This document shows positions 3,509 to 64,000 of a DNA stretch of 64,000 nt, piece after piece (positions within the stretch are counted from its first letter, which is position 1; each line of letters opens with the position of its first letter). The DNA comes from Clostridia bacterium (GTDB lineage: Bacteria; Bacillota; Clostridia; Oscillospirales; Acutalibacteraceae): contig JAKSQK010000001.1 of assembly GCA_024404145.1 (NCBI GenBank), forward strand, positions 248,001 to 312,000, read 5' to 3'. The notes below the pieces were generated by a model. The model was not told where the DNA came from. It made no database searches and saw nothing but the letters and a program-made list of their open reading frames with translations. The translations under genes and the position numbers were made by a program.

Positions 3509-4753
3509 ATGAGGAGAATAACTGTTATCGGCGGCGGTGCATCGGGGCTTATGGCGGCAATATCTGCGGCAGGTAATACGGGAAGTTTTGTAACTGTTAT
3601 CGAAAAAAACCAAAGACCTGCCAGAAAACTTATGATAACGGGCAAGGGCAGATGCAATGTAACTAATAACAGCGATGCCGATAATGTTATTAAAAATATC
3701 CCGAAAAACGGCAGATTTCTCTATTCCGTTTTTTCAAGGTTTTCGCCAAAGGATACAATGGAGTTTTTTGAAAACTGCGGAGTTCCCCTTAAAACCGAGA
3801 GAGGAAACCGAGTTTTTCCCGTTTCCGATAAAGCGGTCGATATTGTTGATGCGCTTGTCAATAAAGCCAAATCGTTAAATGTTAAAATAATCGAATCGTC
3901 GGCAACCGAGATTCTTTGTAAAAACGGCAGAGTTTTTGCCGTTAGATTAGAAGATAATACCGAGATTTCTTCCGATTCGGTTATAATTTCTACGGGCGGA
4001 ATGTCCTATCCGCTGACCGGCTCAACAGGTGATGGATACAAGTTTGCAAAAGATTTAGGGCATACCGTTACCGAGATTTATCCTTCGTTAGTTCCTCTCG
4101 AATGTCATGAAGGATTTTGCTCAAATCTTTCGGGGCTTTCGCTTAAAAACATAACGGCTTCTTTTTTTTATGAGGGCGATAAAAAGCCCGTTTTTGAGGA
4201 ACAAGGGGAACTTTTGTTTACTCATTTCGGAATATCCGGCCCTTTAACCCTTTCGGCATCTGCTCATTTAAGAGACATAAAAAACAAAAACTGTTATTGT
4301 TTAATCGACCTTAAACCGGCGCTTACGGCAGAGCAACTTGATAAACGGCTGATTAGAGATTTTTCGGACGAACTCAATAAAGATTTTTCAAATTCTCTCG
4401 GTGCTTTGTTGCCGAAAAGTTTAATTCCGATTATTGTTAAACTTTCGGGAATAGCGCCTGATATAAAGGTAAATCAAATAACAAAAGAGCAACGGCAAAT
4501 TCTCATAAAACTTATAAAACAATTCAAACTACATATAATAGGCACAAGACCAATAGAAGAAGCAATAATAACAAGCGGCGGTGTTTCGGTTAAGGAAATA
4601 GACCCGAAAACAATGCAGTCAAAACTGATAAACGGATTATTCTTTGCGGGTGAAGTAATTGATGTTGATGCATATACCGGCGGATATAATCTTCAAATTG
4701 CTTTTTCAACGGGTTATGTTGCGGGAATAAATGCAGCAAAAGAAAGGAATTAG
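3509..4753 (+). CDS. BaiN/HI0933-family FAD-dependent oxidoreductase
   Basis: This 414-residue flavoprotein is of the HI0933-like family, in which BaiN of bile-acid dehydroxylators is the named member. The N-terminus carries the dinucleotide-binding GGGASG motif (residues 8-13), then the family-typical KLMITGKGRCNVTN segment. The C-terminal flavin-binding segment (TGGYNLQIAFSTGYVAG) is intact. The family is widespread and mostly of unknown substrate, so bile-acid reduction should not be inferred from the name. The start ATG has a GCGGTGGTG ribosome site. The end abuts cmk, and occurrence just before cmk is common in Clostridia as far as I know. Confidence 0.88.
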   Translation: MRRITVIGGGASGLMAAISAAGNTGSFVTVIEKNQRPARKLMITGKGRCNVTNNSDADNVIKNIPKNGRFLYSVFSRFSPKDTMEFFENCGVPLKTERGNRVFPVSDKAVDIVDALVNKAKSLNVKIIESSATEILCKNGRVFAVRLEDNTEISSDSVIISTGGMSYPLTGSTGDGYKFAKDLGHTVTEIYPSLVPLECHEGFCSNLSGLSLKNITASFFYEGDKKPVFEEQGELLFTHFGISGPLTLSASAHLRDIKNKNCYCLIDLKPALTAEQLDKRLIRDFSDELNKDFSNSLGALLPKSLIPIIVKLSGIAPDIKVNQITKEQRQILIKLIKQFKLHIIGTRPIEEAIITSGGVSVKEIDPKTMQSKLINGLFFAGEVIDVDAYTGGYNLQIAFSTGYVAGINAAKERN

Positions 4754-4757
4754 AATT

Positions 4758-5429
4758 ATGATTTCAATAGCACTTGACGGCCCTGCCGGAGCAGGAAAAA
4801 GTACGGTTGCGAAGGGTGTTGCAAAGGAACTCGGATATATTTATGTTGATACCGGCGCACTTTACCGTGCGGTAGGCCTTCATTTTTTAAGAAAGGGAAT
4901 TGATACAAATCTCAACTGCGATGTTGAGGCAGAACTCAAAGAGATAAGTATTGATATAAAATTTGTTAAAAATGAGCAAAAGGTTTTTCTTAACGGAGAA
5001 GATGTTTCAAATGAAATCAGAACTCCCGATGCTTCAATGATGGCTTCTGCCGTTTCGGCTAAACCGCCTGTAAGAGCGTTCTTACTTGAAATGCAAAGGA
5101 AACTCGCAAGAGAAAATAATGTTCTTATGGACGGCAGAGATATAGGAACAGTTGTTTTGCCTAATGCAACACTTAAATTTTTCGTTACTGCATCGGCGGA
5201 AGAAAGAGCCAACAGAAGATATAAGGAACTGATAGAAAAGGGAATGAAAGTAGAATACAGCGAGGTTTATGACGATATCGTTACAAGGGATTATAACGAT
5301 TCTCATAGAGAAATTGCCCCCTTAAAACCTGCCGAAGATTCAATTATGTTTGATACGACGGGGAATACCCTCGAAGAATCTATCGAACTTCTTAAAACTG
5401 CTATAAACGAAAGGCTTGAAAGCAAGTGA
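4758..5429 (+). CDS. cmk: (d)CMP kinase
   Basis: Phosphorylates CMP and dCMP to the diphosphates with ATP, in pyrimidine salvage and DNA precursor supply. The protein is 223 residues, the family's normal length. The P-loop GPAGAGKST sits at residues 8-16, followed by YVDTGALYRAVG and MDGRDIGTVV, which bind the nucleotide. The ATG at 4758 is preferred over an upstream in-frame ATG at 4731 because AGAAAGGA lies just before it and the earlier one falls inside the preceding gene. The stop overlaps the GTG of ispH-rpsA (GTGA), which suggests translational coupling. Confidence 0.95.
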   Translation: MISIALDGPAGAGKSTVAKGVAKELGYIYVDTGALYRAVGLHFLRKGIDTNLNCDVEAELKEISIDIKFVKNEQKVFLNGEDVSNEIRTPDASMMASAVSAKPPVRAFLLEMQRKLARENNVLMDGRDIGTVVLPNATLKFFVTASAEERANRRYKELIEKGMKVEYSEVYDDIVTRDYNDSHREIAPLKPAEDSIMFDTTGNTLEESIELLKTAINERLESK

Positions 5430-7567
5430 AAATAACCGTTGCAAAAACCGCCGGATTTTGTTTTGGTGTTAACCGTGCGGTTACAACCGTATATGACCTT
5501 TTGGAAAGCGGAAAAAAGGTTTGTACGCTCGGGCCCATAATTCATAATCCTCAACTTGTTGAAGAACTCAGCAAAAAAGGAACGAGGATAGTTGATAATC
5601 CAAAAGAAGTTAAAAAAGACGAGGTTCTTGTTATCCGCTCCCATGGTGTTCCCGCCGAAACCTTAAAACTTGCAAACAGTATGGGTGTTGAAACAGTAGA
5701 TGCAACCTGCCCGTTTGTATCAAAAATTCATAATATCGTTTTTGAGCAGAGCCAAAAAGGCGATTTGATTTTTATTGCAGGAGATAAAAATCATAGTGAA
5801 GTTATAGGGATTATGGGGCATAGCAATACCGAAGTTTTTGTTTTTTCCGATATAGAAGAACTTGAAGAAATCGCAAAAAACAACCCCGAAATTTCCCAAA
5901 ATAGTATAACTGTGGTAGCTCAAACGACATTTAATGCAAAAAAATGGGCAGATATTCAAAAAATTTTCAAAAAACTATATACAAATGCAAAAATATTTGA
6001 TACAATATGTAATGCAACTTCGGCAAGACAAAACGAAGCGCTGATGCTTTCGAAAACAAACGATGCTATGGTCGTTATAGGGGGTAGGCAAAGTTCTAAT
6101 ACTGCAAAACTTTTTGAGGTTTGCAGTTCGTTTTGTAAGAAGACCTATCTAATTCAAACCGCCGATGAAATTTCATTTGACTGGTTTGAAGGTGTAAGGT
6201 CGGTCGGCGTTGTCGCTGGTGCTTCGACACCGGCGCGTATCATAAAGGAGGTAACTATTACCATGTCGGAAAATTTACAACTGGTAGACGAACAGACGGA
6301 GGGAATTGAAACTGTTCAAAAAAGCTTCGAGGAAATGACGGACGAGGAAGCATTTGAGGCTTCTCTCAGCAATTTAACGGGAGATCAAAAAGTAGTCGGA
6401 ACCGTACTTGCAGTAAATCCTACCGAAGTTCAAGTTGACTTTGGCAGAGGAATTACAGGTTACATAGCTGCATCTGAATTCTCACTTGATCCAGACGTTA
6501 AGCTTGAGGAAGAAGTTAAGATCGGAGATACTTATAATCTGATAATTATGAGAATTAACGATCAGGAAGGAACTGCAATGCTTTCAAAACGCCGCTTTGA
6601 TGCTATTGCCGGTTGGGATAATATAGTCGCAGCCAAAGAATCAGGCGAAGTTTTAACAGGCGTTGTTCGTGATGTTGTCAAGGGTGGCGTAGTTGTTTTT
6701 GTAAACAATGTTCGTGTATTTATCCCCGGCTCACAAGCAACAATGTCGAGAAATGATTCTCTTGAAGAATTAAAGGGCAAAGAGGTTTCTTTCCGCATTA
6801 TCGAAATCGGCAGAGGCCGCAGAGCACTCGGTTCTATCAAATCTGTTCTCAGAGAAGATCGCAAAGCCGCAGAAGAAAAGATTTGGAGTTCTATTGCTGT
6901 CGGCGACCGCTTTAAGGGCACGGTTCGTTCTATTACAACCTACGGTGCTTTCGTTGATTTAGGCGGAGTTGACGGAATGGTTCATATTTCCGAACTTTCT
7001 TGGTCAAGAATCAAAAATCCTTCGGAAGTTGTTTCTGTCGGCGATGAAATTGATGTTTATGTTAAGGCAATTGATGCCGAAAAGAGAAAAATATCATTGG
7101 GATATAAGGACCCCGCTGATAATCCTTGGACTAAGTTTACAACCGAATTCAATGTTGAAGATGTTGTTAAGGTTACAATAGTCAGTCTTACAACCTACGG
7201 TGCATTCGCAAGAATAATTCCCGGTGTTGACGGTCTTATCCATATTTCTCAAATTGCCGATAAACATATCGCCAAACCGCAGGACGAACTTACAGTAGGT
7301 CAAGAGGTTGATGCAAAGATTATCGCCATTGATACCGATAAGAAGCGTGTCAGTCTTTCAATTCGTGCTTTGATTCAAAAAGAAGCAGAAGAAAAAGCTG
7401 AGGGCGAAGATGAAGTTGTAGCAACAACTGAGGAAGCCCCGATAGAAGTTCCTGCCGAAACCGCAGAGGAAACCCCTGTTGAAGTTGTTGAGGAAACAGT
7501 AGCAGAAACCCCTGTTGAGGTTGCTGAGGAAGCAGTAGCAGAAACTACCGAAGAAACAGCAGAATAA
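5426..7567 (+). CDS. ispH-rpsA: IspH - ribosomal protein S1 fusion
   Basis: A single 713-residue frame joins two proteins. Residues 1-279 are IspH, the iron-sulfur enzyme that makes IPP and DMAPP from HMBPP at the end of the MEP pathway; cluster cysteines are C12, C95 and C195, with H40, H73, H123 and E125 also in place. Residues 280-713 are an S1-type protein with four S1 RNA-binding domains at about 321-390, 407-476, 494-562 and 578-648, then an acidic tail of VEE/AETP repeats. The fusion is known in Clostridia. A strong internal Shine-Dalgarno site (AAAGGAGGT, 6244-6252) precedes an in-frame ATG at 6263, exactly at the S1 boundary, so free S1 may also be made. Translation of the whole starts with GTG overlapping cmk. 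Confidence 0.95.
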   Translation: MKITVAKTAGFCFGVNRAVTTVYDLLESGKKVCTLGPIIHNPQLVEELSKKGTRIVDNPKEVKKDEVLVIRSHGVPAETLKLANSMGVETVDATCPFVSKIHNIVFEQSQKGDLIFIAGDKNHSEVIGIMGHSNTEVFVFSDIEELEEIAKNNPEISQNSITVVAQTTFNAKKWADIQKIFKKLYTNAKIFDTICNATSARQNEALMLSKTNDAMVVIGGRQSSNTAKLFEVCSSFCKKTYLIQTADEISFDWFEGVRSVGVVAGASTPARIIKEVTITMSENLQLVDEQTEGIETVQKSFEEMTDEEAFEASLSNLTGDQKVVGTVLAVNPTEVQVDFGRGITGYIAASEFSLDPDVKLEEEVKIGDTYNLIIMRINDQEGTAMLSKRRFDAIAGWDNIVAAKESGEVLTGVVRDVVKGGVVVFVNNVRVFIPGSQATMSRNDSLEELKGKEVSFRIIEIGRGRRALGSIKSVLREDRKAAEEKIWSSIAVGDRFKGTVRSITTYGAFVDLGGVDGMVHISELSWSRIKNPSEVVSVGDEIDVYVKAIDAEKRKISLGYKDPADNPWTKFTTEFNVEDVVKVTIVSLTTYGAFARIIPGVDGLIHISQIADKHIAKPQDELTVGQEVDAKIIAIDTDKKRVSLSIRALIQKEAEEKAEGEDEVVATTEEAPIEVPAETAEETPVEVVEETVAETPVEVAEEAVAETTEETAE
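6244..6265 (+). promoter_or_regulatory. internal ribosome binding site and start for free S1 protein
   Basis: AAAGGAGGT lies about 11 bases before an in-frame ATG (6263-6265) that encodes residue 280 of the IspH-S1 fusion. It is one of the best ribosome sites in the window and sits at the domain junction, so a separate 434-residue S1 product is plausible. Use of the site is inferred. Confidence 0.6.
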
Positions 7568-61633: not shown

Positions 61634-61661
61634 TTGACAATTTTTGAAAATATGATATGAT
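61634..61661 (+). promoter_or_regulatory. promoter of the branched-chain amino-acid type transporter
   Basis: TTGACA (61634-61639) and TATGAT (61656-61661), 16 bases apart; about 50 bases before the ATG, which has a GGAGG ribosome site. Confidence 0.75.
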
Positions 61662-61715
61662 ATACACAGTACACTTTTTTGCATTAGTGTATAAAATTGT
61701 TAATGGAGGAAAATT

Positions 61716-62984
61716 ATGAAAAAAATCATTGCTACTTTATTATCTATGCTTTTAATCGTTGCATGTTTTGCCGGTTGCGGAAGCAAAGATAACAAAACAA
61801 CATTAAAAAGAGCTTATATTTTAGCCGAAAAAGGCGATACCTATTCTCTTGGACTTTCAAGTAATTTTCAGAGAGCTTTTGAAGACATGGGCGGTTCTGT
61901 AATAATGGAAACCTTCCCCAAAAACACTACCAATTTTTCTGACTATTTGCAGAAAGCCATTGATAAGGATGCAGATGTAATTTTTGCTCCTAACTCAACC
62001 GCCGTTGCTGCAAATCTTCTTAAAAATGCAGATGACTTAGGTATTGAATGCCCTATTATGGCAGGAGATACTTGGGAACATTCCGTAATTCTTGATGCCG
62101 TTAAGGGAACAGACCTCGAAGTTTACTGTTCAACCTTCTTTGATGAATCCGATACATCTACTGCGGCCGCAGGTGATTTTGTTAAAGGATTTAAGGACTT
62201 CTTAAATAACAATAACGAATATAAAACCATGAACGGCGGAAATGATATCGTTGCCGCTGTATCTGCTCTCGGTTTTGATGCATACAATGTTGCCATGAGC
62301 GCAATTCGTGCCGCTGCTGATAAAAAGGGTGCTGACCTTACATCGGTTGATGTTGCAAATGCGCTTTGGGATATGGATTACGAAAACGGCGTTACCGGTA
62401 AAATCACCTTTGACAGTAACGGTGATGCTATAAAGGACAGCGCTTATATTAAGAAAGCTAACGACGGAAAGTTTGAATTCATCAAAAAGCAAACTATCGC
62501 CAATAATGCTTCAAAAGGAACTGCTCCCGCATATGCAAATGCAAAGGGCGTTAAACTTGATACAAAGAACAAGAAAATTGTTGTTGGTGTTTATGAGCCG
62601 ACTTCCGGTGATAACGCCGCGGGCGGTAAGCAGGAAGTTATAGGCATAAGATATGCAAACAGTCTTGATAATAAGATTAAAATCGGCTCTGATGAATACA
62701 CTGTTGAACTTTATGTTTCTGATAACGGCTCGGTTGATGAACAGGCAGTTACCGCCGCTTCCAACATCGTTAATCAGAATGCTTTGATTTCTCTCGGTTC
62801 TTACGGTTCCGGTGTTTCTATCGCCGCCGCCGATACATTTGCAAATGCAAATATTCCCGCTATCGGTGTTTCCTGCACAAATGCTTCCGTTACAGAAGGA
62901 CACGACTGGTATTTCCGTACCTGTTTCCTTGATCCTTTCCAGGGCTCGGTAATGGCTCAATTTGCTTGGGATACTATTAAGTAA
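61716..62984 (+). CDS. branched-chain amino-acid type substrate-binding lipoprotein, circularly permuted
   Basis: A 422-residue extracellular binding protein for the adjacent LivH/LivM-type ABC transporter. A lipoprotein signal peptide ends in FAGC with C21 as lipid anchor. The mature part has the LivJ-family blocks in the wrong order. Residues about 31-262 (KRAYILAEKGDTYSLGLSSN to DSAYIKKANDGKFEFIKK) match what is normally the C-terminal two thirds. After a 23-residue linker (263-285), residues 286-421 (KKIVVGVYEPTSGDNAAGG to RTCFLDPFQGSVMAQFAW) match the normal N-terminal third, and the protein stops exactly where the first block would usually continue. The frame is open and clean, so this looks like a genuine circular permutation at the first inter-lobe crossover. 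The ligand is likely an amino acid or peptide, unproven. Confidence 0.85.
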   Translation: MKKIIATLLSMLLIVACFAGCGSKDNKTTLKRAYILAEKGDTYSLGLSSNFQRAFEDMGGSVIMETFPKNTTNFSDYLQKAIDKDADVIFAPNSTAVAANLLKNADDLGIECPIMAGDTWEHSVILDAVKGTDLEVYCSTFFDESDTSTAAAGDFVKGFKDFLNNNNEYKTMNGGNDIVAAVSALGFDAYNVAMSAIRAAADKKGADLTSVDVANALWDMDYENGVTGKITFDSNGDAIKDSAYIKKANDGKFEFIKKQTIANNASKGTAPAYANAKGVKLDTKNKKIVVGVYEPTSGDNAAGGKQEVIGIRYANSLDNKIKIGSDEYTVELYVSDNGSVDEQAVTAASNIVNQNALISLGSYGSGVSIAAADTFANANIPAIGVSCTNASVTEGHDWYFRTCFLDPFQGSVMAQFAWDTIK

Positions 62985-63004: not shown

Positions 63005-63037
63005 AGTACGGCAGGCGAATAACCTGCCGTACTTTTG
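63005..63037 (+). terminator. intercistronic terminator between the binding protein and livH
   Basis: AGTACGGCAGG and CCTGCCGTACT form a perfect 11-bp stem with a 7-base loop and TTTTG. It would lower permease expression relative to the binding protein. Confidence 0.82.
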
Positions 63038-63057: not shown

Positions 63058-63939
63058 ATGAATATTATGCCATATCTGATTCGAGGCCTTGCAACCGGCG
63101 GACAGTTTGCTTTGGTTGCTATCGGATATACAATGGTTTACGGTATCTTGAAACTTATAAATTTCGCTCACGGCGATTTGTTTATGGTTTCGGGAATGTT
63201 ACTTATTTATTTAGTAGCAGATTTTCCGACTATGCCGATATATTTTTCGATACTTATAATGATAGTTATAACAGTAGTCATCGGTTATTTAATCGAAAAG
63301 TGCGCCTATTCTCCTTTAAGACAGGCGCCGAGAATGTCGGTAATGATTTCCGCAATAGGTGTTTCCTATCTTTTGCAAAATCTTGTTGCCTATCTAACGG
63401 GCGGTATTTCCAAACAATTCCCCGAACTGCCGTTTTTGAGCGAAAATATTAGACTGTTTGGCGTTAAGGATAAAATTTCTGTATTTTTATCTCCGATACT
63501 CGCAATTTTGCTCACGGTGGCTTTGGTTTTTGTTATCAATAAAACAAAATTCGGTATGTCAATGAGGGCAGTATCCCGTGATTTTGAAACTTCTCAGCTT
63601 ATGGGAATAAAAATCAACTGGGTTATTTCGGTTACTTTTGCCATAGGCGCATTTCTTGCTGCCGCAGGTTCTCTTTTATATTTTTCAAAGAATACCGGAA
63701 TAAATCACTTGGCAGGTTCAACTCCCGGAATTAAGGCGTTTATTGCTGCCGTTGTCGGTGGTATCGGCTCTGTACCCGGTGCCGTGGTCGGTGCGCTTAT
63801 TATCGGTGTTGTCGAGAGTCTTGCCCGTGCGTTTGACCTTGCCGATTTTGCCGATGTAATTTCGTTTGCGCTTTTGATTATAATATTGGTCGTTAAGCCG
63901 ACAGGTTTATTTGGCGAACAGGTCAGAGAGAAGGTGTAA
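63058..63939 (+). CDS. livH: branched-chain amino-acid ABC transporter permease LivH
   Basis: A 293-residue membrane permease with about eight spans. The family pattern is GLATGGQFALVAIGYTMVYGILKLINFAHGDLFMV at the N-terminus and AGSTPGIKAFIAAVVGGIGSVPGAVVGALIIGVVE near the C-terminus. It pairs with LivM and the ATPases LivG and LivF, which should follow outside the window. GAAAGG precedes the ATG. Its sequence order is normal, unlike the binding protein. Confidence 0.95.
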   Translation: MNIMPYLIRGLATGGQFALVAIGYTMVYGILKLINFAHGDLFMVSGMLLIYLVADFPTMPIYFSILIMIVITVVIGYLIEKCAYSPLRQAPRMSVMISAIGVSYLLQNLVAYLTGGISKQFPELPFLSENIRLFGVKDKISVFLSPILAILLTVALVFVINKTKFGMSMRAVSRDFETSQLMGIKINWVISVTFAIGAFLAAAGSLLYFSKNTGINHLAGSTPGIKAFIAAVVGGIGSVPGAVVGALIIGVVESLARAFDLADFADVISFALLIIILVVKPTGLFGEQVREKV

Positions 63940-63941
63940 GT

Positions 63942-64000
63942 ATGAAATTTTGGGATAAGAATAAAAGACTGATTTGCAACCTTTGTTTTATACTTCTGCT
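63942..64000 (+). CDS. livM: LivM-type permease, 5' end only
   Basis: The ATG at 63942 follows the livH stop by two bases, behind AGAGAAGGTG. Nineteen codons are visible (MKFWDKNKRLICNLCFILL), a basic start leading into a hydrophobic helix. The LivM call rests on position after livH. Confidence 0.6.
   Translation, partial: MKFWDKNKRLICNLCFILL

Follow-up and report, generated by a model that had tools for sequence, protein, structure and literature searches.

A circularly permuted LivJ-type substrate-binding lipoprotein encoded with livHMGF in a Clostridia bacterium

A Clostridia bacterium encoded, directly before livH, a LivJ-type substrate-binding lipoprotein in which the two sequence blocks of the family occur in swapped order (here called cpLivJ). 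The protein is very probably a working receptor of an amino-acid ABC importer that was permuted once. The gene lies in a 64,000-nt stretch of DNA (the window; positions 248,001–312,000 of contig JAKSQK010000001.1) from a 12-contig draft genome of a gut-type Bacillota (GCA_024404145.1). The features of the region are, in window coordinates:

61634–61661, + strand: promoter-like site upstream of cpLivJ, TTGACA-16-TATGAT, 11/12 matches with an extended -10 (consensus scan; by itself no evidence of function)
61705–61709, + strand: ribosome-binding site GGAGG, 6 bases 5' of the ATG (sequence)
61716–62984, + strand: cpLivJ, complete ORF of 422 aa, circularly permuted LivJ-type substrate-binding lipoprotein (sequence, Pfam, phmmer)
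61716–61778, + strand: lipoprotein signal peptide with lipobox FAGC and lipid Cys21, codon 61776–61778 (sequence)
61803–62501, + strand: residues 30–262, the C-terminal block of ordinary LivJ, beginning with the first strand of lobe 2 (Pfam, phmmer, models)
62502–62570, + strand: residues 263–285, 23-residue linker from the old C-terminus to the old N-terminus (alignment, AlphaFold2)
62571–62981, + strand: residues 286–422, the N-terminal block of ordinary LivJ, finishing at the first helix of lobe 2 (NCBIfam, phmmer, models)
62982–62984, + strand: stop codon, directly 3' of the N-block (sequence)
63005–63033, + strand: 11-pair hairpin between cpLivJ and livH, z -5.0 (sequence and folding score)
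63058–63939, + strand: livH permease, BPD_transp_2 (Pfam, BLAST)
63942–64000, + strand: start of livM (contig ORFs); livM (311942–313024), livG and livF reach beyond the window, at approximately 311942–314575 of the contig

The PF13458 (Peripla_BP_6) profile matched cpLivJ in two stretches (E 8e-30; 105 bits, cut-off 31.7), so that both blocks were covered; in the better stretch, residues 31–251 matched profile positions 136–342. The NCBIfam model NF011933 matched the N-block only (45.6 bits, cut-off 477). In a phmmer comparison with LivK (PDB 3td9), residues 286–420 aligned to chain residues 15–146 and residues 30–255 to chain residues 149–356, and from these inverted matches the order of cpLivJ was read as C-block, linker, N-block. 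Only two residues of the 3td9 chain lie between the swapped blocks, which means that almost no sequence was lost at the cut. The collinear domain order normal for LivJ/HAAT proteins is therefore not the one found in cpLivJ. Two alignments with 45–60% identity, spanning 134 and 230 residues, again had the order inverted; a pair of this length and identity is far beyond chance. The original prediction had claimed the ORF, stop codon, blocks and linker at these positions, which the sequence and Pfam confirmed, and had proposed aligning the blocks separately with LivJ/LivK proteins, a comparison in which they fell in inverted order on 3td9. Its assignment of the signal peptide and lipid cysteine to the new N-terminus agreed with the lipobox and Cys21. 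An alignment of the permuted orthologues described below showed the signal peptide in the same position and the proteins terminating in the same loop as cpLivJ.

AlphaFold2 produced a confident model of cpLivJ (pLDDT 92.0, pTM 0.87) and of a normal-order relative used as a control (L132; pLDDT 91.9, pTM 0.90). After rotation, the elements of the control corresponded to those of cpLivJ (E137–143 = E32–38, E355–363 = E252–260, E2–7 = E287–292, H121–132 = H406–421); the structural alignment combined permuted proteins and unpermuted blocks, a mixture biased towards the known fold. In the models, the new ends fall in lobe 2, within the loop that runs from its first helix to its first strand. This differs from the original prediction, which had put the cut at the first crossover between the lobes: the modelled cut falls in the loop after it (H121–132 / E137–143 of L132), approximately 20 residues past the crossover, and the three native crossovers consequently remain intact. 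In sequential alignment with 3td9, the control model scored Z 45.4 and TM 0.87 and the permuted model Z 16.1 and TM 0.45, a low score that is expected because the chain order differs. The best sequential structure matches of the permuted model had approximately 9–14% identity, and we infer that these are lobe-swapped alignments permitted by the pseudo-symmetry of the fold. An ordinary LivJ chain starts in lobe 1 and finishes in lobe 2. Since the old termini lie in different lobes, the linker (pLDDT ~90), which is predicted to be ordered, would make a fourth inter-lobe connection.

With LivJ/LivK of HAAT importers (PF13458; PDB 3td9, 4gnr), cpLivJ shares the sequence family, the livJHMGF operon, the lipoprotein signal, the pocket residues and the predicted secondary-structure elements, but it is permuted at the lobe-2 loop that joins the first helix to the first strand, carries the additional 23-residue linker and has its anchor on lobe 2. 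Among type I binding proteins, TpMglB-2 (Tp0684; ‘type Ic / cluster Bc’; PDB 5JX2) and its relatives are described as naturally permuted; TpMglB-2 binds D-glucose, changes shape on binding and has its cut within the N-lobe sheet, the first three strands of which now come at the C-terminal end (PMC4990184). Cluster Bc, which occurs in spirochaetes and gut Gram-positives, and cpLivJ have in common the natural permutation, the lipid tether and the fourth inter-lobe connection (a predicted one in cpLivJ), as well as a linker joining the old C- and N-termini, which in cpLivJ is predicted to be ordered. They differ in that cluster Bc belongs to a sugar-binding branch and that in cpLivJ the entire N-block has moved, together with crossover 1 and the first helix of lobe 2. 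Neither structure search run with the permuted model had TpMglB-2 among the 50 matches listed, an absence that has no bearing either way. Glycine-betaine binding proteins have the type II fold. Circularly permuted members of these are known (CPSARST family: 2b4l, 1r9l, 1sw1; PMC2395249), and they resemble cpLivJ as ABC importer binding proteins permuted in nature; however, their sequences are unrelated to it and their structural relation is at <24% identity, compared with approximately 45–60% between the two orders here. No earlier report of a permuted LivJ/HAAT protein was found in the open-access literature searched, a search that mostly excluded subscription journals. The original prediction that such a fold change would be unusual stands for LivJ-type proteins but not for type I binding proteins in general, given the TpMglB-2 precedent (PMC4990184). 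cpLivJ differs from the known permuted type I cases in family and in cut site; it would be the second natural case among type I binding proteins, in another branch and at another site, and the naturally tested cut site may be usable in sensor engineering.

A contig scan with the single protein was too specific and gave no match; a profile of the N-block, run against GTDB species genomes, then recovered orthologues among at least 80 loci. Permuted order was present in four of the loci listed (L121, JAFZQU010000004.1; L122, JAFSXE010000052.1; L123, DCHA01000020.1; L128, SVQJ01000131.1), which were collinear with cpLivJ end to end and 57–74% identical to it. Five more (L222, L223, L249, L250 and L251) came from searches around those genomes, giving ten permuted proteins including cpLivJ; all nine others were full-length collinear with it and had the same order and cut site, with 55–75% identity to cpLivJ. 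The loci compared included approximately 156 normal-order relatives. In samples of 70 genomes from the genus, 300 and 398 from the family, 394 from the order and 391 from the class, searched with score limits rather than as a full census, no other permuted copy was found, which indicates that the permutation is sparse around the source genome. Likewise, none was found in IMG/VR or in genomes related to those of L122 and L123. A close relative of cpLivJ occurred in only two of the 70 genus genomes, the source genome (permuted) and G010 (normal order), and this patchy distribution perhaps reflects horizontal transfer.

The draft state of the source genome (12 contigs) and the single, normal-order relative in its genus could be taken as signs of an assembly or binning artefact, in which a normal or tandem livJ was mis-joined and the swapped order is absent from the cell. 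The recurrence of order, cut and linker in nine other genomes, at 55–75% identity, in full-length open frames and with a differing GC content (41–61% in the five measured), excludes an assembly join for practical purposes and leaves the chance of an artefact negligible. The search of related genomes for the same order, which had been proposed as a check, was in this way productive, and it favoured an evolved arrangement over an assembly join as originally predicted.

Trees built after re-ordering placed the permuted proteins on one side of a branch with a support of 100. In these quick trees, which do not fix the root, they form a real group, though not necessarily a strictly monophyletic one. 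The dN/dS was approximately 0.06–0.12 in both blocks among clade-A members with estimable dS, a rough value as dS was saturated in many comparisons. cpLivJ kept 76 of the 83 positions conserved at ≥90% in 125 normal relatives. Residues Y43, D118, S365 and T388, which we take to be the positions binding the alpha-amino and carboxylate groups in E. coli LivJ/LBP, were kept and were invariant among five permuted members; the retention of these pocket residues makes an alpha-amino acid the likely ligand. The mean pairwise identity of the linker was 45% across the ten members, compared with 17.5% for the lipid tether, and its pattern GTAPxYxxxGIxLDTxNKK was kept. The linker was also considered as a remnant signal peptide, to which it showed no similarity. 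The claim of a circular permutation is upheld by the nine orthologues, this purifying-type conservation and the confident predicted fold. That cpLivJ is merely the decaying or functionless remnant of a duplication is exceedingly improbable: such a fate would suit the orphan genes described below, which are without an adjacent livH and of which three of four have lost a conserved motif, but it is at odds with the intactness of all ten frames, a low dN/dS in the two blocks, a conserved pocket and linker, six genes directly before livH-livM, and the status of cpLivJ as the only SBP match of its kind in the source genome.

On the source contig, cpLivJ was followed by livH, livM, livG and livF (ORFs, BLAST), leaving the importer gene set intact, and no second SBP match of its kind was found in the source genome at E 0.001. 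The hairpin between cpLivJ and livH is possibly an attenuator or a 3'-end stabiliser, perhaps setting the ratio of SBP to permease. Six of the ten permuted genes were located directly before livH-livM, and four, a second branch, were orphans beside unrelated genes (L128:1831-3123, L249:888-2168, L250:~451-1743, L251:1501-2775). The conserved DPFQG motif was altered in three of these four, suggesting from their sequences an altered role. The orphans raise the question of whether cpLivJ itself has a sensing or receptor role unrelated to transport while another SBP serves livHMGF. We consider this quite improbable, in view of the single SBP match in the source genome and of the six genomes in which the permuted gene immediately precedes livH.

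The permeases LivH and LivM of the permuted operons form a long lineage of their own; LivG does not. LivH and LivM of the source operon had 76–84% identity to those of the L121–L123 operons, in contrast to approximately 55–61% to normal-order operons. LivG, on the other hand, was about equally close to normal-order relatives from its own genus and family (83%) and to the permuted operons (80–82%). The stem of the permuted operons was 0.93 changes per site long in the LivHM tree and 0.067 in the LivG tree, the LivG comparison including eight normal sequences of a protein that generally evolves more slowly. Conserved positions changed in all permuted operons numbered 13 of 128 in LivH and 9 of 141 in LivM. 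As a lead only, the long LivHM stem points either to a receptor and permeases that diverged together or to the exchange of a J-H-M module. The contrast between LivHM and LivG is the one hint at the altered hinge motion or docking on LivH/LivM that the original prediction had put forward as possible.

We propose that cpLivJ is the membrane-tethered receptor of a LivJ-H-M-G-F importer (HAAT) for branched-chain or other amino acids. It would adopt the two-lobed Venus flytrap fold, bind an alpha-amino acid between the lobes and hand it to LivH/LivM. The lipid anchor would pull on lobe 2, and the linker, as a fourth link between the lobes, may affect the hinge. A more detailed scenario, in which an independent permutation lineage with its anchor on lobe 2 co-diverged with LivH/LivM, altered docking or gating, and gave rise to an orphan branch recruited elsewhere, is possible rather than probable. 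The close normal-order relatives (approximately 45–60% identity) and matching permease operons make the roles of the anchor and the inter-lobe link in opening and docking testable.

For the origin of cpLivJ, we favour a single ancestral event in which two livJ genes, duplicated in tandem, would have fused, after which the leading N-block and the trailing C-block would have been lost. The new start would thereby lie in the lobe-2 loop that separates the first helix from the first strand, with the ordered 23-residue linker bridging the former ends. Another route, such as repeat recombination or a split into separately encoded halves that later fused again, is an unlikely but serious contender. 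A fused N-C-N-C intermediate was not found in the genomes searched, and the linker resembles neither a signal peptide nor the usual post-lipobox spacer, both of which fit these other routes; conversely, the searches found no genome with separate halves, and tandem livJ copies exist in a relative. The alternatives concern the origin only and are compatible with a functional cpLivJ. The tandem copies precede livH in G427 (L084:2641-3969 and 4186-5451, - strand) and are both in normal order. This livJ-livJ-livH arrangement shows the first step of the duplication route in nature, and the pair is a possible model for the duplicated intermediate.
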